Assembly: GCF_900170025.1 (NCBI RefSeq)
Contig: NZ_FWEX01000006.1
Span: 452,501 to 516,500, forward strand
From: Nitrospira sp. ND1
GTDB lineage: Bacteria > Nitrospirota > Nitrospiria > Nitrospirales > Nitrospiraceae
DNA: 64,000 bases
Reading direction: 5' to 3'
Of the stretch, positions 3,742 through 47,448 are shown one piece after another. Each line of letters begins with the position of its first letter. Position 1 is the stretch's first letter. Both the position numbers and the translations under genes were made by a program. The notes under the pieces are model-generated. The model did not search any database, was not told where the DNA came from, and was given only the letters and a program-made list of their open reading frames with translations.

Positions 3742-4613
3742 ACTGTCTGCTTATCAAGGCCGGGGGTAAATGGCGCAGCCATTTGATCTAGAAAACCACG
3801 AGGGTACTGCCGATTCACCAAGCCTAGCGCACCCACCGACCCGTCAGCTGGCAGGTAACGGGACCCGAACACAACATCCCAGACAATCAAATGATTGCCG
3901 TAATTGTGATTCGACTCCTCCTTCTGCATGGAATGATGCCATCGATGCAGTTCCGGTCCACTGACCACATAATTCAGCCATCCCAGCCGCACATCCGCGT
4001 TGGAATGCTGAAAGAACCCGTTCACGGCGTACCACACGAAGTACAGGCCCAACACGTCTTCCTGGACGCCAAGCGCGAGGAACGGCAGCGCATCAAAGAC
4101 AAATTGGAGGCCCTTGTCGATGGGATGAAATCGTCCCACGTTGAGCGTATAGAGCCGCTGCGGCGCATGATGCACCGCGTGAACGCGCCAGAGAGGCTCC
4201 CACTCATGGCTGAGCCGATGCAGCCAATAGCGCAGGCCATCGACGATCAGCACCATCAACATCGTCTGCGTCGGAACCGGCCAGTCATGCGGCCACCACA
4301 CAGACATACCCCAGCCCCGTCCGTGGAGAACATCAAAGATTACAAACACCGACGCCGCCGCCAAGGCCTTCGGCAGGATGATATGCACGAGTGCCAGAAA
4401 GGTCGAATCCTGAACGACCTCAACCCGCGACGGCCGCCAGTCAGATCGATAGGGCAACGTCGCCTCCAGCGCCATGATCAGCAACGTCCCGAGCGTGACC
4501 GGTAGATAGGTCGCCGGCAGCACCCCCGTGCCCATGTGAAACAGCACAAGATTGCCGATTACGCAGGCCAGCAAGATTGAGGGATAGGCCCCATATCGAA
4601 GCAGAAGGATCAC
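3738..4613 (-). CDS. Sterol desaturase / fatty acid hydroxylase family membrane protein
   Basis: 291 residues with several hydrophobic helices and the di-iron histidine clusters of the family: HRLSHE, HAVHHAPQ, FFQHSNAD and HRWHHS. These enzymes hydroxylate or desaturate lipids or sterol-like substrates at the inner membrane. GTG start in a four-base overlap with the preceding membrane-protein gene, and it overlaps the GH3 gene downstream in the same way, so the four genes are almost certainly one transcript. The product may hydroxylate the acyl chain handled by the GH3-type enzyme (inference). Confidence 0.88.
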   Translation of the reverse strand: MILLLRYGAYPSILLACVIGNLVLFHMGTGVLPATYLPVTLGTLLIMALEATLPYRSDWRPSRVEVVQDSTFLALVHIILPKALAAASVFVIFDVLHGRGWGMSVWWPHDWPVPTQTMLMVLIVDGLRYWLHRLSHEWEPLWRVHAVHHAPQRLYTLNVGRFHPIDKGLQFVFDALPFLALGVQEDVLGLYFVWYAVNGFFQHSNADVRLGWLNYVVSGPELHRWHHSMQKEESNHNYGNHLIVWDVVFGSRYLPADGSVGALGLVNRQYPRGFLDQMAAPFTPGLDKQTV

Positions 4614-5089
4614 GCCGCACCTTCCGAGACTGGTGCGACCGAACAGGATCCGCTTGCCGTATGAAAGGAGCCACTGACGAGCAGGAAACTAGCCAGCACC
4701 AGATGAAATAACGTCGGTACAATGGCGCCGAACCAAAAATGATTCGGTGCGACGGTGAGCCCAATCAACAGCCGAATCCCCATCACGACGAAGTAGACCC
4801 ACCCCAGCACCAGGAGCAGCCGGCCCTTTTTCCCTGAAGGGACCACGGTCCCGGACAGAAAACTCCACACGACACGACCGCAAGCGACAAGAATGATCAA
4901 TTGGAGCGAAACGAGCAGCGGATACGGAAGCGCTCCGCTCTGCCAGGTTTCGAATGGCGGCAGCGAGGTAACCGGCGAGTAGGCTTGAATCAGCTGTGCC
5001 GCCACACGGAAGAAGAACAGAAGCAGCAGCCCGAGTAGCAGCCAACCATAGGGGTGAGAGATTCGCCGGCCTGACGATGCATCAGCCAT
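4610..5089 (-). CDS. Small integral membrane protein, first gene of the GH3/desaturase operon
   Basis: 159 residues with about four hydrophobic helices (YGWLLLGLLLLFFFRVAAQ; PLLVSLQLIILVACGRVVW; LLLVLGWVYFVVMGIRLLIG; VPTLFHLVLASFLLVSG). I do not recognise a family. ATG start; the stop overlaps the next start by four bases. It may be a membrane partner of the hydroxylase, but only gene order supports that. About 210 bases upstream are free of genes and should hold the operon promoter; I could not pick one out. Confidence 0.7.
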   Translation of the reverse strand: MADASSGRRISHPYGWLLLGLLLLFFFRVAAQLIQAYSPVTSLPPFETWQSGALPYPLLVSLQLIILVACGRVVWSFLSGTVVPSGKKGRLLLVLGWVYFVVMGIRLLIGLTVAPNHFWFGAIVPTLFHLVLASFLLVSGSFHTASGSCSVAPVSEGAA

Positions 5090-5302
5090 GGCCCCCTTAT
5101 TCTATGTCGCATCCAAGTGCAGACAAGAAAAAAGAGATTCTTCAGAGGATTCAACCTAGGGTTTGGGGGCTGGTCCAGAGGTGCGAATGAGTGCAGGACA
5201 CGCAGGATCGTCGGAGAGAAGGAGAACGGTCGCACAGGGAGACGCCATGCGCTCCATCGTTCGCATCGATGGGGTAAGACTGGGCCTGCGCACACGCCGG
5301 CC

Positions 5303-41509: not shown

Positions 41510-42055
41510 CTACATGGTTCCTGCGCCGGCTGGAGTCGAAGCTGCCAACAGTTTTTCCACTTCCTGAATGATGACCTCGGCGCCCGCCAATTCCATATTG
41601 CCCACCCGCTGCCACCTGATCACACCGCGCTGATCGATCACATACACATTGGGAATGAACTTCCCACCGCCATACAGTTTGTCGGTGGTCTTATTCGGAT
41701 CGAGTAAATAGGGGTACGTCACCTTCACGGGAAAGGCACTCAAGAATTCGCCCACGCCCCGTTTGGAATCCCCCGACGAATTGACCCCGACGACGGCCAC
41801 ATTTTTCCCGGTCATCGCCTCATGGACCTTTTGCAGGTTGGTCCCTTGGGTCATACAGGGATCACAAATATGAAACAACCCGAGGACAACCACTTTCCCC
41901 TTTAACTGCTCAAGCGAAACAGCATCGCCTGTCACAGACGTCAACGAGAAGATCGGCGCCGGCTCGCCGACTTTAAAAAACCCGGCGGCGACTACAAGGT
42001 GGGCAGCCCACAGATGCACCAATACGATCGCAACCGCTACGAGAAGTCGCTTCAT
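41510..42055 (-). CDS. Exported thioredoxin-fold protein (TlpA/AhpC-TSA type)
   Basis: 181 residues: signal peptide (cut near VVAAG), then a redoxin domain with EPAPIFSLTSVTGDAVSLEQLKGKVVVLGLF and the redox motif C-D-P-C (Cys64, Cys67). A cis-Pro region follows near FIPNVYVIDQRG. Likely a periplasmic thiol-disulfide oxidoreductase, for example in cytochrome c maturation. AAGGAGGATCTG gives a strong ribosome binding site; this is the first gene of the operon. The 190 bases upstream contain a possible promoter (TTGCTC, 18 bases, TAGGAT, minus strand). Confidence 0.83.
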   Translation of the reverse strand: MKRLLVAVAIVLVHLWAAHLVVAAGFFKVGEPAPIFSLTSVTGDAVSLEQLKGKVVVLGLFHICDPCMTQGTNLQKVHEAMTGKNVAVVGVNSSGDSKRGVGEFLSAFPVKVTYPYLLDPNKTTDKLYGGGKFIPNVYVIDQRGVIRWQRVGNMELAGAEVIIQEVEKLLAASTPAGAGTM

Positions 42056-42245: not shown

Positions 42246-43541
42246 TCAGCCGGAGCTCTGCAACCACCGCACGACTGCTTCACGCATCCGGACAGAAAGA
42301 ATCCATTTGGCGATAATCCGATGAAACGGCTTCAAACAAGTGGCCAGCATACGAAGTCGTCGTTGAACCCGGAACCAGGGCAACGAACGGGTGAGCACCT
42401 CTGCTTCCGCGCGACAGAGCGCGACCCCAAGTTTCCACCGCTCAAGCCAGGAGTCTTTGAGCGTCATGTACAGAGCCTCCGCACAATCTTCATCAATCCC
42501 ATGACGAGGATTCTTCAGCAGCTGCTTAGGCATCTTTCGAACGAGGACGGGGATATCTGCATCTGTCTCGATCTCCTGAAGTATCGTCAGTGGAACGGCA
42601 GTATCGAACAGACTGTGAGCCATCGCCAGGCCGAGCAGGACCAACCGTCGACATCTCCACTCGCCTGCCTGAAACAACACACGACTCCAATCTAACGCCG
42701 GCCGCCGACGCACGAGTTCCGCCACATCGCAGACCCACTTCAACTGCTCCCAGGCATGTTTTGCCCCATGCACGCAAAGAAGAATCAACAGATCCTCCGG
42801 GCAGAGGCCCATCACCGATTTTGTTGGTAAGTGAACAGGCTTCAGCCTTCCCCAAAACGCGCTCCGATCAAGCCGAAATCCGAAATGCCGGCGAGCCATC
42901 ATCCACTGAAGATCGACCGCAACAATGCCGTTTCGCCTCTGGAAAAAGTGATACGGCTCCCCTGACTCCTCCCCGCCTCCCATGTCCTGGCTGGTCAGTT
43001 GATACCCCTGAGACCATAAGACTTTCCGAGCTTGGGGAATCGCTCCCTGCTCAACAATCAAATCAATATCCGCACATTCCCGTAAACCTAGGTCGCCATA
43101 CGCCGTCTGTGCAAGCGTGACGCCTTTAAAGGGAATCGCCGTCACCCCCTTGGCCGCCAACGCATCGAGTAAGGTCACGAGTTCTTTAGCCAACAAGCTA
43201 TTTAAAAGAGCGTTCGCCTGATTGTGCCGACGAAAGGCTTCGTGAATGGAAGAAGGCACGGCAGCGGGACAAATTGTGACCAGATTGCGATACACTAGCG
43301 GCGCCACGCCATGGGCTCTGGACAGCTGCCAGACCAGCTCCCAATCAATTCCATCGTAGGCCAAATCTGCCACTTCGACTCGAACAAACTCACTCACCGT
43401 CGTTCGCGCACAGAGCGCAAGCAATCGTCCCTCCGCACGCATGAGGAACAATCCTGGCGCCGGTGTCGTCCCCTTACGCGAAATACCTCCAAGACGAGAG
43501 GAGCTCCATTGCGCGACGGTGGACCTTGGAAACTGTCCCAT
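42246..43541 (-). CDS. Nucleotidyltransferase-family protein (PF14907 type) in RiPP cluster
   Basis: 431 residues. The motif FKGVTLAQTAYGDLGLRECADIDLIV (residues 138-163; Asp158 and Asp160) is the active-site region of the uncharacterised nucleotidyltransferase family PF14907, which is found beside lasso-peptide and PqqD-type genes. The remaining sequence is helical (HGAKHAWEQLKWVCDVAELVRRRPALDW is a second conserved stretch). Only one base separates its ATG from the HprK-like kinase stop. In this setting it may attach a nucleotide or similar group to the peptide (inference). Confidence 0.8.
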   Translation of the reverse strand: MGQFPRSTVAQWSSSRLGGISRKGTTPAPGLFLMRAEGRLLALCARTTVSEFVRVEVADLAYDGIDWELVWQLSRAHGVAPLVYRNLVTICPAAVPSSIHEAFRRHNQANALLNSLLAKELVTLLDALAAKGVTAIPFKGVTLAQTAYGDLGLRECADIDLIVEQGAIPQARKVLWSQGYQLTSQDMGGGEESGEPYHFFQRRNGIVAVDLQWMMARRHFGFRLDRSAFWGRLKPVHLPTKSVMGLCPEDLLILLCVHGAKHAWEQLKWVCDVAELVRRRPALDWSRVLFQAGEWRCRRLVLLGLAMAHSLFDTAVPLTILQEIETDADIPVLVRKMPKQLLKNPRHGIDEDCAEALYMTLKDSWLERWKLGVALCRAEAEVLTRSLPWFRVQRRLRMLATCLKPFHRIIAKWILSVRMREAVVRWLQSSG

Positions 43542-43542
43542 G

Positions 43543-44583
43543 TCAGTTCTCTCTCCTTGCTTGCCGCTTCTCCAGAAGAGGCGTTACCAGCCATGGCAAC
43601 TCCATGACATCGCGTCCGAAGTGGAGTCGGTAACAATCTGCCTGCTCGACCAATCCCACAAGCGCTTGAAACTCCCGGCGCGCCACTTCGGTGTCATACA
43701 CCAGCAAGGAATGCGGAAGAATCATTTCCAATGCTACCTTCTTGGACAAGGGCTCCAGACAACTGTGCGAGGAATTGACCACCTCGGGAAAGAGGATCAC
43801 GCTGGGCTCGCAAGGCTGACCTAATGGCCCCGGATATACATCCTCAGCATGGAAATAGCTCTTGGGGACACCGGCATGAAGCACAGATGGCGGGGCCGCT
43901 CGCAGTTCTGGAAAGAACGATACGGTGTGATCAGTAACATTGATCTTGAGCGGATACGGGAGGATCTCCACACGCGTGCCGCTGATCCGAAAAAATGGGT
44001 GATCATCGGAAAGGTAACGATACCCTGCTCGCAGCAGGGATAGGAACGAGGTGGTTTTTCCCCGCCCACTGAAACCGGGAATCAGCACACCTTGCCCCTT
44101 GTGCTCCAGTGCGGTGGCATGAAACGTATACAATCCTCGCCGCTTCAGAAGTTCCGTCATGGCGAAATGGACAAAACTCGCCCGGATATCCGGCGCCATG
44201 GCCTCCGGTCTCACCAGATAGCCCCGGACAGATTGTGAGTCCCCATCAATCACGACAAGGCCCTCTCCATGAAAATCGGCAATCAATAGGCCGTTGTCTG
44301 AATAAATGTCGCACAACCATGTCGTCTTCCGATCAGGGTCGATCGCGAGGCCAGAACCGCTATACAACAATTTCGCTGAACTGGAAATCTGGACCGGAAC
44401 ATCCTCACATCGCTCGATCGCGTCGAACTCCATCCGCATGGGCTGAGCCGCAACGGTGTCGCGGTGAAAGTGACGGAGTAACGCCCAAACGGAATGTGCC
44501 AACTCGGACGAATTGGTGGTGAATTTCATCTCTATGCCATGGACGGAGAGTAGAAGTTCCTTCATTGTCGACGCCATGAACAT
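43543..44583 (-). CDS. HprK-like kinase in RiPP cluster
   Basis: 346 residues. C-terminal half resembles HPr kinase/phosphorylase: Walker A GFSGRGKTT (170-178), then YLSDDHPFF (about residue 190) with the catalytic acids, preceded by FHATALEHKGQGVLIPG. The N-terminal 150 residues differ from HprK. HprK-like kinases in lasso clusters (for example that of paeninodin) phosphorylate a serine of the precursor. The ATG at 44583 has AAGGAGAAGCGGTA upstream. It follows the precursor-like peptide gene, separated by a stem-loop. Confidence 0.82.
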   Translation of the reverse strand: MFMASTMKELLLSVHGIEMKFTTNSSELAHSVWALLRHFHRDTVAAQPMRMEFDAIERCEDVPVQISSSAKLLYSGSGLAIDPDRKTTWLCDIYSDNGLLIADFHGEGLVVIDGDSQSVRGYLVRPEAMAPDIRASFVHFAMTELLKRRGLYTFHATALEHKGQGVLIPGFSGRGKTTSFLSLLRAGYRYLSDDHPFFRISGTRVEILPYPLKINVTDHTVSFFPELRAAPPSVLHAGVPKSYFHAEDVYPGPLGQPCEPSVILFPEVVNSSHSCLEPLSKKVALEMILPHSLLVYDTEVARREFQALVGLVEQADCYRLHFGRDVMELPWLVTPLLEKRQARREN

Positions 44584-44639
44584 TACCGCTTCTCCTTTTC
44601 AGCCTTCTGCCCGTCGTCACTACCGCAGAGATGTGGGGC

Positions 44640-44670
44640 GAGCTGGCCGGTCTAGTTAACCGGCCAGCTC
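44640..44670 (-). terminator. Strong stem-loop after the precursor-like peptide gene
   Basis: GAGCTGGCCGGT (44640-44651) and ACCGGCCAGCTC (44659-44670) are perfect 12-base inverted repeats with a 7-base loop. No T-run follows on either strand, so it is more likely an RNA-stabilising or attenuating hairpin between the small peptide gene and the kinase gene than a full terminator. Confidence 0.65.
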
Positions 44671-44698
44671 CATGGCTCTCACTAGAGCACCTGGCATG

Positions 44699-44812
44699 TT
44701 ATATGGGTGTTCGATCCAGCACGCGGGACAACTGAATGGCCGTTACGTCGCGCAGCAACTCATGTTTCACGAGCGCCGGCTTGACGTATTCGGTCTTTAT
44801 CTGTTGCTCCAT
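44699..44812 (-). CDS. Candidate RiPP precursor peptide with lasso-type leader
   Basis: 37 residues. Leader pattern Tyr9-x2-Pro12-x-Leu14 ... Thr24 has exactly the spacing of the lasso leader Y-x2-P-x-L-x3-G-x5-T, with Glu18 in place of Gly. If cut after residue 25, as in known lasso peptides, the 12-residue core is IQLSRVLDRTPI. Its Asp8 lies where a lasso ring would close, but residue 1 is Ile rather than Gly. Ribosome binding site AAAGGAGGTGA is near-perfect, and its TGA is the stop of the PqqD-like gene. Too short to be called by size, but context and signals support it. Confidence 0.65.
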   Translation of the reverse strand: MEQQIKTEYVKPALVKHELLRDVTAIQLSRVLDRTPI

Positions 44813-44818
44813 TCTCAC

Positions 44819-44829
44819 TCACCTCCTTT
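44819..44829 (-). promoter_or_regulatory. Shine-Dalgarno of the precursor-like peptide, overlapping the RRE stop codon
   Basis: On the minus strand it reads AAAGGAGGTGA, complementary to most of the anti-Shine-Dalgarno, six bases from the ATG at 44812. The final TGA is the stop of the PqqD-like gene, so termination there delivers ribosomes to the peptide start. Confidence 0.8.
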
Positions 44830-45136
44830 CTGTGTGAAGTAATCCTTCCTGCTCCAGAAGCACAATCAACGCCAGCATATCGTCCTGCGCCTGCTGTTCA
44901 GACACATCAAACCTGGCACAGATTGCTGAGTGAATCTGCCGCAACGACTGCTCCCCTCTGCACAAATTCCAAATGGTTGATCCGACGACATTGAGCGTGT
45001 AATAGCGGCCGGAGTTCAGATTCAACAGCACACTTTCACCATCGAGAACCGTGCTGTGGACCTGTTCATCCTGCCTGGGAAATATTTCGGACAATTCGAG
45101 TTGAGGCTCACTCCACAGATGCACAGTGGCAGGCAT
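44819..45136 (-). CDS. PqqD-family peptide-binding protein (RRE; lasso B1-like)
   Basis: 105 residues. The PqqD fold pattern is clear: VLLNLNSGRYYTLNVVGSTIWNLCRG (about 36-61), then SLRQIHSAICARFDV and a final helix DDMLALIVLLEQEGLL. Stand-alone members of this family (lasso B1) bind the leader peptide and hand it to the B2 peptidase. An N-terminal extension of about 25 residues is less conserved. Ribosome binding site CAGGAGC precedes the ATG. The precursor-like gene starts six bases after its stop. Confidence 0.85.
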   Translation of the reverse strand: MPATVHLWSEPQLELSEIFPRQDEQVHSTVLDGESVLLNLNSGRYYTLNVVGSTIWNLCRGEQSLRQIHSAICARFDVSEQQAQDDMLALIVLLEQEGLLHTERR

Positions 45137-45509
45137 ATAGATGCTCCTGGTTCAGATTGCTGGGACATGTGACTGCTCCGATACCACCATTCGTTCTGAA
45201 ACCGATTTTTCCCCGAAGTCTTGGTCCCTCTACAAGCAAGCCGTGCACATCACTGCAAGACAAGGGCGAAACTATCGTCATCACGCTCGTTTCTCTATCC
45301 CCAGTGAGATTGGGCTCCACCTCCCTTTGGGGGATCCGGATTTTATTTTCATGAAGAACGGATGAAAAAAGCGTACGGATGGGGCCGCTAGTGGGTTTCA
45401 AAGCCGAACTTGTCAGCTTGATTCACACAGACGCACAGGAAAGACTCGATTCGCCCAGGCCCGCCAGGTCCAGTTGACCCCAAGAGAACGGTAATGTGCA
45501 GAGGAGGTC
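45137..45509. other. Gene-poor stretch between B2-like and RRE genes (373 bases)
   Basis: No gene I can support. A minus-strand frame of 97 codons (45108-45401) and a plus-strand frame of 74 codons (45141-45365) lack ribosome binding sites and family features. An unusual gap inside a compact cluster; it may hold a second promoter for the RRE-precursor-kinase part, or the remains of a lost gene. Confidence 0.4.
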
Positions 45510-45950
45510 TCAGGAGATGCGAGATGATTGAGTACTTGAGGAAACCAGGGATTGAGGGAAGGTAACCGTCACGGTAAACGATTGCCAGTAGGAGGACGGC
45601 TCAAGAAACTCATGACCCTCCAGCACCAGCCATGCGTGTCCCTCCAGCTGCTGATTGAGCTTCATCACTCCGCATTTGAATTGAACGGGGAGGCCGGCAC
45701 GGCGGGCGAAAAAAAATAGCGCTAACGCTCGAGGAAAACAATTCCCCTTCGGATTGTATGGAAACAGCGCGAGCCACCGATCCACATAATAGGCCACATC
45801 TTCCATCGCGTGCTCATCCGGATCGGCTGAAATCTCGCATACTAACCAGCCGAGCAATCGCCTGAGACTCGTCAGGCGGGACGCGATGCGGACCCCAACG
45901 ACCACAACACCAGTGGCAACGATCACTCGATACTTCCGAACCAGCGACAT
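45510..45950 (-). CDS. Lasso-peptide B2-like cysteine peptidase (transglutaminase-like core 3)
   Basis: 146 residues. The catalytic stretch GNCFPRALALFFFARRAGLP (Cys71) and EGHAWLVLEG (His105) match the PF13471 family, which cuts lasso leader peptides; the third residue would be Glu117 in FLEPSSYW, where lasso B2 often has Asp. N-terminal helix (VATGVVVVGVRIASRLTSL) is hydrophobic. It opens the cluster, 67 bases after purF. It normally works with the B1/RRE protein, which lies downstream. Confidence 0.82.
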   Translation of the reverse strand: MSLVRKYRVIVATGVVVVGVRIASRLTSLRRLLGWLVCEISADPDEHAMEDVAYYVDRWLALFPYNPKGNCFPRALALFFFARRAGLPVQFKCGVMKLNQQLEGHAWLVLEGHEFLEPSSYWQSFTVTVTFPQSLVSSSTQSSRIS

Positions 45951-46017: not shown

Positions 46018-47448
46018 TCAGCGCGGAGCTTCAAAGAGCCCTAGTTGGAGTTCTTCTGCCCGGGTAAAGGAGATAGGGTATTGTTCGGTAAAGCAGGCAT
46101 CGCAGTACTGCCCCGGAGTACCGGGAGCCGCCTTCACCATGCCGTCCAGGCTCAAGTAGGCGAGGCTATCCGCGGTGATGTATTTGCGAATCTCTTCGGT
46201 GGTATGGCTGGATGCGATCAATTCCTTCTTGGTCGGTGTATCGATGCCATAAAAACAGGGCGACACGATCGGCGGAGAACTAATGCGCATATGCACTTCT
46301 TTGGCTCCGGCATGACGCAGCATCTTGACGATTTTTCGGCTCGTCGTTCCCCGAACCAACGAATCGTCTACTACGACCACGCGTTTCCCTTCGAGGACTT
46401 CGGGAACGGCATTGAGCTTCACCTTCACCCCGAAGTGACGAATTGACTGCTCCGGCTCGATGAAGGTGCGACCCACATAATGATTCCGGATCAGTCCGGT
46501 TTCAAAAGGAAACCCCGACCCTTCCGAATAACCCAACGCCGCCGGCACCCCGGAATCCGGCACGGGAATCACGATGTCCGCATCAACCCGCGATTCTTGC
46601 GCCAATTGCCGGCCGAATGCCTTCCGGATGGAATAGACGGCTTTGCCTCCAAAAATGCGGCTATCAGGACGGGCAAAGTAGACATATTCAAACACACACA
46701 TGGCCGGCTTGGTTTGAGCGAATGGCTTATAACTGGTGACGCCCTGATGATCCAGTACCACCAACTCTCCCGGTTCGATCTCCCTTACATATTCGGCATC
46801 CAACAGATCGAACGCGCAACTTTCGGAGGCCACTATCCAGGCGTCACGAAACCGTCCCAGGCACAGGGGGCGAAATCCATGGGGATCGCGCGCGGCGACA
46901 ATGCCCTGATCGGTCATCAGAACCACTGAAAATGCACCGCGAACCTGGGTGAGCGAATCGATGACCCGGTCCAGCAGCGTATCCGCCCGCGAATGGGCGA
47001 TGAGATGGATAATGACTTCCGTGTCGGACGTCGATTGAAAAATAGCGCCATAGGCTTCCAGTTCACTGCGAAGCATGGTGGCATTGATCAAATTCCCATT
47101 GTGCGCCACGGCGAGGTTACCGAAGGCAAAATTGACGCTCAAGGGTTGCACATTCTTGAGCCCTGCCCCGCCCGCAGTGGAATAGCGGTTGTGCCCGATC
47201 GCCATCGTGCCGGGCAGACGTGCCAAGGCCTGTTGCGAAAAAATATCTGCAACAAGGCCCTGACCCTTTTCGACATAAAACTGTTCACCGTCGTTGGAGA
47301 CAATACCGGACGCTTCCTGTCCGCGATGTTGCAGCGCATAGAGACCGAGGTAGGCGAGGTTCGCGGCCTCTTTATGACCATAGATACCGAACACGGCACA
47401 TTCGTCGTGGAACTTATCGGGAGAAATCAGCGGTAATTCGTTGGCCAT
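46018..47448 (-). CDS. purF: Amidophosphoribosyltransferase
   Basis: 476 residues. A 16-residue propeptide is followed by Cys17 ([14 protein letters not shown]), the exposed N-terminal nucleophile after cleavage. PRPP-binding motif is [15 protein letters not shown]-terminal cysteines in SPCFYGID and [11 protein letters not shown] match the [4Fe-4S] ligands of the Bacillus-type enzyme, so it likely carries a cluster. First committed step of purine synthesis. Last pur gene of the run; purL lies 12 bases upstream. Confidence 0.96.

Follow-up and report, generated by a model that had tools for sequence, protein, structure and literature searches.

A cyclase-free, kinase-bearing RiPP locus in Nitrospira that probably yields a short linear phosphopeptide

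The stretch of DNA considered here, hereafter the window, comprises 64,000 nucleotides of Nitrospira sp. ND1 (contig NZ_FWEX01000006.1, positions 452,501 to 516,500) and contains a compact candidate locus for a ribosomally synthesized and post-translationally modified peptide (RiPP). It consists of five intact genes, all on the minus strand and in this order: a B2-type leader peptidase, a RiPP recognition element (RRE) of the PqqD type, a short precursor peptide, an HprK-like kinase and a PF14907 protein (Table 1). The set is flanked by purF on the B2 side and by a redoxin gene on the PF14907 side, and no other gene-sized open reading frame (ORF) is found between the two. An earlier note on this DNA had described five clustered minus-strand genes in that place, with a 37-residue peptide gene among them; the coordinates and family matches agree, and so does its statement on absent genes, since the window holds no lasso cyclase and no dedicated exporter. 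In the whole genome (4.45 Mb), B2, PqqD and this kind of kinase each occur once. We argue below that this operon probably makes a short linear phosphopeptide, as a Nitrospirota variant of the cyclase-free phosphopeptide RiPPs.

Table 1. Features of the locus and its flanks (positions in the window)
Feature	Position	Strand	Remarks
Redoxin gene	41510-42055		flanks the set on the PF14907 side
PF14907 nucleotidyltransferase-like protein (PsmN/LppN type)	42246-43541	-	PF14907 231 bits
HprK-like peptide kinase	43543-44583	-	P-loop GFSGRGKT, SDD motif; TIGR04352 53.9 bits, below cut-off 200
GC-rich RNA hairpin in the precursor-kinase interval	44640-44670	-	conserved, covarying
Precursor peptide, 37 aa	44699-44812	-	MEQQIKTEYVKPALVKHELLRDVTAIQLSRVLDRTPI; predicted leader YVKPALVKHELLRDVT, predicted core (A)IQLSRVLDRTPI
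Discrete RRE (PqqD family)	44819-45136	-	PF05402 66.8 bits
Conserved non-coding element upstream of the RRE gene	45289-45312	-	CAATCTCACTGGGGATAGAGAAAC; possible promoter or regulatory site
B2-type leader peptidase (transglutaminase-like cysteine peptidase)	45510-45950	-	Cys71/His105; PF13471 71 bits
purF	46018-47448		flanks the set on the B2 side

Across the collected loci, 93 distinct precursors adjoin RRE and kinase genes. They were assigned to three groups through scripted sequence rules, the type b group being especially approximate, and distinct precursors are counted because the kinase-bearing loci, drawn from two genome collections, contain near-duplicates, which makes such counts the safer figures. 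The 24 distinct genus-type precursors share, with few exceptions, the leader YxxPxLxxHELLRDVT, followed by AIxLSR and a variable end; counting from the last Thr of the leader, Ser stands at T+5 and Arg at T+6 in every one of them. Their core is 9-14 residues long, with a single invariant Ser that lies internally, and the C-terminal residue differs between relatives. In the window precursor this would be Ser5 if the cut falls after Thr and Ser4 if it falls after Thr-Ala. Five relatives carry the precursor as two tandem copies. In the type a precursors, which belong to the exporter-bearing sister type, Ser is found at T+4 (43/43), and the 24 type b precursors mostly show TGxKYxEK or TGGxS.

These cores also bear on the possibility of a ring. 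Whichever cleavage site is taken, Gly1 is absent from all 24 genus-type cores, as is an acidic residue at positions 7-9 followed by a tail of at least six residues; as far as lasso cores are understood at present, this excludes a lasso fold for them. The locus had been presented in the earlier note as a lasso-like cluster; as its cores are unable to make the lasso ring, that name is better avoided. Eight type a cores would pass a simple test for Gly1 and an acidic residue, and their loci are also without a cyclase.

The arrangement extends through the genus Nitrospira and one sister genus, where the order purL-purF-B2-RRE-precursor (one or two copies)-kinase-PF14907-redoxin recurs without cyclase or exporter; the whole interval is visible in 16 of 18 such loci, the other two (L047 and L050) ending at contig ends. 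Closed genomes, among them that of Ca. Nitrospira defluvii (FP929003, L126), carry the same locus with identical junctions, which rules out misassembly. The absence of the cyclase is conserved across the genus-type loci, and no cyclase lies beyond a misassembled junction. A search with the kinase gave matches, some of them weak, in 72 of 198 relatives, and in 61 of 144 good genomes, and a scan of genome collections indicates that the family is nearly confined to Nitrospirota, the exceptions being one Methylomirabilota contig, one contig labelled Nitrospinota and distant kinases of Chloroflexota. Four genomes from other genera have the redoxin gene beside purF, and none of the set in between. 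As for Chloroflexota, loci L149, L152, L153 and L156 hold a B2, an RRE, a distant HprK-like kinase and an asparagine-synthase-like protein, and are possible lasso clusters.

In sister genera, exporter and ATP-grasp genes occupy the purF-redoxin site, between B2 and RRE. Two organizations are found: type a (RRE-precursor-kinase-PF14907-B2-exporter) and type b (B2-exporter-two ATP-grasp-like proteins-RRE-precursor-kinase-fatty-acid-hydroxylase-like-PF14907, some without exporter), and two genomes (L061 and L063) hold both of them side by side. The second ATP-grasp protein of type b resembles graspetide maturases at scores below their cut-offs (TIGR04187 126 bits, MvdD 104 bits), and the first matches such maturases weakly. 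In the kinase tree the stripped type of the genus forms one clade (100/99) and type a another (100/100); type b needs three changes, and the tree does not decide between an ancestral gain and a loss of the ATP-grasp genes. Clusters with the ATP-grasp pair (L059, L060, L061, L062, L063, L064, L065, L072, L076 and L077) include many cores with TGxKYxEK, and fatty-acid-hydroxylase-like genes occur in several of them.

All five genes are under purifying selection. Median dN/dS values for the genus-type loci, obtained by the Nei-Gojobori method from sequence pairs that are not independent, are 0.25 for B2, 0.22 for the RRE, 0.25 for the precursor and 0.13 for both the kinase and the PF14907 gene, as compared with 0.07 for the flanking redoxin gene and 0.02 for purF, and no ORF of these loci has an internal stop. 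Genus-wide synteny, the lack of internal stops and low dN/dS together make the locus more than a chance arrangement. Furthermore, the genus offers a series of losses: an intact kinase is absent in 7 of 29 genomes, of which G001 and G020 retain both B2 and kinase as remnants (with the precursor fused to kinase sequence in G020) and G002, G009, G018, G024 and G026 have lost kinase, B2 and precursor. The PF14907 motif FKG..LRECADIDLIV, kept in kinase-bearing genomes, is altered in these five, mostly to F(H/R)G..EDIELIV, a change that links the PF14907 active site to the kinase. Kinase, B2 and precursor thus seem to decay together, with the PF14907 motif altered alongside, and this supports the proposed phosphopeptide pathway. 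Among kinase-less Nitrospira loci, L160, L161, L162, L163 and L165 retain a PF14907 ORF whose catalytic motif is altered; in three of them an RRE persists as well, with FHRL replacing YYTL, and L163 has two transposase-like ORFs (about 4090-5130) between purF and the RRE gene.

The B2 peptidase exceeds the cut-off of the lasso B2 model NF033537 (49.8 bits against 33), and the catalytic Cys71 and His105 noted previously are both kept in 17/17 B2 sequences; its comparison with solved structures gave no match. By profile score the RRE family appears nearer to the lasso RREs PbaB1 (9x90, 54 bits) and TbiB1 (52 bits) than to LppB (9x8z, 28 bits). The earlier description of a lasso-type toolkit without a cyclase is, to that extent, borne out. 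The window kinase was modelled with AlphaFold2 (pLDDT 89.7), and among solved folds PEP carboxykinases and HPr kinase, members of the HprK superfamily, come nearest; its match to TIGR04352, the HprK-related kinase A model of the HPr-rel-A system, lies far under the curated cut-off. Across 17 kinase sequences neither the P-loop glycines nor the SDD motif varies, and the P-loop Lys is replaced by Arg only in the kinase of L070. This last is an orphan (L070:8450-9472) standing between purF and the redoxin gene, with no RRE or precursor found nearby. A plasmid search with the kinase returned weak partial matches only. The PF14907 protein, by analogy, is possibly a glycosyl- or nucleotidyl-transferase that acts on a phosphate.

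The closest known counterparts are the linear polyphosphorylated peptides (LPPs), whose clusters encode a SipW-like peptidase, an RRE, an HprK-like kinase, an NTP transferase and an exporter, and no cyclase (Popov et al., 2026; PMC13381572). The earlier note had regarded a cyclase-free version as new, an idea overtaken by the publication of the LPPs in May 2026. The Nitrospira locus shares with them the discrete RRE, the HprK-like kinase, the NTP transferase, the missing lasso cyclase and a Ser shortly past the leader Thr. Against the LPP leader consensus YxxPxVLxHQxIxFETxxS, the Nitrospirota leader is in register at Y1, P4, H9, [E/Q]10 and T16, whereas the FE before T is replaced by DV or DI, and the Ser falls at position 21 in the genus and 20 in the sister type, as compared with 19 in LPPs. 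The peptidase differs as well, being of the B2 cysteine type; no SipW-like enzyme is encoded in the purF-redoxin interval, to which the check for a SipW homologue was confined. LPP clusters include an MsbA-like exporter, which genus-type loci lack and sister genera possess, and LPP precursors measure 35-200 aa, in contrast to the very short Nitrospira core. Both LPPs and paeninodins are said to be restricted to Bacillota (PMC13381572). We do not file the locus as an LPP, given that two defining features, peptidase type and exporter, fail and that the RRE scores nearer to lasso RREs. What is still new is the phylum, the B2 enzyme in place of a signal-peptidase-like one, the very short core, the lack of an exporter and the existence of ATP-grasp sister clusters. 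In the open-licence papers searched, no description of the Nitrospira locus was found.

With the phospholassos paeninodin and pseudomycoidin the locus has in common the B2 peptidase, the discrete RRE, the HprK-like kinase and the NTP transferase, but it has no cyclase, YxxP takes the place of WxxP, the Ser lies near the N-terminus of the core and not at its C-terminus, and the core is unable to form a ring; with respect to lasso peptides in general, B2 and a discrete RRE are present and both cyclase and ring-competent core are lacking. Graspetides (MvdC/MvdD, TIGR04187) enter the comparison through the sister clusters, in which this kinase, RRE and leader occur along with a TIGR04187-like pair of ligases, whereas the window genome has no such ligase. 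The type b clusters may fall within graspetide groups 33 and 39, those with a transglutaminase-fold protein (PMC13097080). An ATP-grasp ligase acting in trans was also considered for the window genome and ruled out, a profile of the relatives' ligase finding no match of that family there (E 1e-3).

According to the mechanism that we propose, the RRE would bind the YxxPxL leader of the precursor and offer it to the HprK-like kinase, which would phosphorylate the invariant Ser a few residues past the leader Thr, perhaps repeatedly. The B2 peptidase, through Cys71 and His105, would then cut at the leader Thr or one residue beyond, freeing a core of about 12 residues, and no ring would be formed. 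There are precedents for such steps: LppK adds several phosphates to core Ser3 (as numbered from a cut at Thr-1; PMC13381572), and in pseudomycoidin PsmK phosphorylates and PsmN puts a hexose on the phospho-Ser (reviewed in PMC9266682). The PF14907 protein may likewise attach a sugar or a nucleotide to the phosphate. Several points weigh against this scheme. Its product, mass and activity are predictions; the absence of an exporter leaves a secreted product unexplained; and the spacing between Ser and Thr in the genus is one residue longer than in sister clusters and two longer than in LPPs. Moreover, deletion of lppN was without effect in the LPP study (PMC13381572), which makes the PF14907 step a guess, and the PF14907 ORF is intact in 29/29 genus genomes, the seven without an intact kinase included, so that this protein may have another role.

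A lasso pathway with its cyclase acting in trans from elsewhere in the genome is very improbable. The B2 and RRE are indeed of lasso type, and the genome does encode four complete class-II asparagine-synthase-like proteins; all, however, are encoded far from the locus and are of the asparagine-synthase type, starting with MCG (intact glutaminase) and scoring 422-473 bits with the asparagine synthase model (cut-off 267), as against 175-310 with a lasso-cyclase cut-off of 525 that is not decisive, since Chloroflexota proteins encoded beside B2 and RRE genes miss it too. The ring requirements that fail in all the genus cores speak against it as well, and so does the lack of the cyclase in all relatives. 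Of 97 kinase-bearing loci, 96 have no cyclase-type protein, and the remaining one, L073, has a full asparagine-synthase-like protein about 4 kb off. Of the two outcomes that the earlier note had left standing, a cyclase in trans is thus unlikely, and cleavage plus phosphorylation would be the most likely fate of the peptide. Still less credible, to the point that we would hardly defend it, is an assembly of unrelated neighbours in which the short ORF is no precursor. Short ORFs do arise by chance and the PF14907 ORF is kept without the others, but the peptide bears a motif for RRE binding, its many distinct forms lie next to RRE and kinase genes, and it disappears together with these genes.

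The locus could also be the decaying relic of a larger cluster with an exporter, and with or without ATP-grasp ligases, that no longer makes a product. The richer clusters of sister genera at the same site and the loss of the kinase in part of the genus, with visible remnants in two genomes, are what one would expect from it; we hold it to be unlikely, given that kinase-bearing genomes have intact ORFs with dN/dS of 0.13-0.25, precursor included, that the hairpin covaries, and that the stripped type is one well-supported clade of the kinase tree and has therefore persisted through many speciations. Closer to the phosphopeptide reading, from which it differs in destination only, is the notion of an internal regulator or signal: the peptide would be phosphorylated and cleaved, and would do its work within the cell. 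Genus-type loci have no exporter, the window genome holds no close relative of one, and the very short core bears the conserved AIxLSR segment. Nevertheless, the variable C-terminal residues and the tandem precursor copies resemble RiPP diversity, and the only exporters in the genome, generic MsbA-like proteins with at most 31% identity to the exporter of the relatives, could serve; on balance we regard an internal role as doubtful.

Should the operon indeed make a linear phosphopeptide, the cyclase-free phosphopeptide RiPPs would extend from Bacillota to Nitrospirota, a nitrite-oxidising group, with a lasso-type B2, and the chassis of RRE, B2 and kinase would be shown to function without the lasso cyclase. 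The short core with its single invariant Ser makes the key prediction easily testable. More tentatively, Nitrospirota might possess a kinase-first RiPP family of their own, in which one chassis (leader, RRE, B2 and HprK-like kinase) stands by itself or is joined by an exporter or by graspetide ligases. From one and the same leader, Nitrospira would make bare phosphopeptides, which for want of an exporter would act in the cell, and sister genera would make phospho-graspetide hybrids. The ATP-grasp sister clusters constitute a natural series for studying how RiPP classes exchange modifying enzymes while the leader is retained.

Two elements outside the coding sequences complete the picture. The gap between B2 and RRE contains an ORF (45108-45401) that was considered as a second precursor and rejected: the DNA alignment of relatives, read as a whole, presents one short conserved element amid length changes and low identity, and the ORF is taken as having no conserved reading frame. 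The non-coding element upstream of the RRE gene (Table 1) has no match in Rfam; it occurs as a single copy in the genome, and its conservation within the genus extends to three kinase-less genomes in which an RRE is retained. As for the hairpin between precursor and kinase genes, situated directly behind the former, an Rfam match to PtaRNA1 (22 bits against a threshold of 47) is taken as chance; 8 of its 11 pairs are changed on both sides, a figure that 0/500 shuffles match, and 95.7% of cells are paired.

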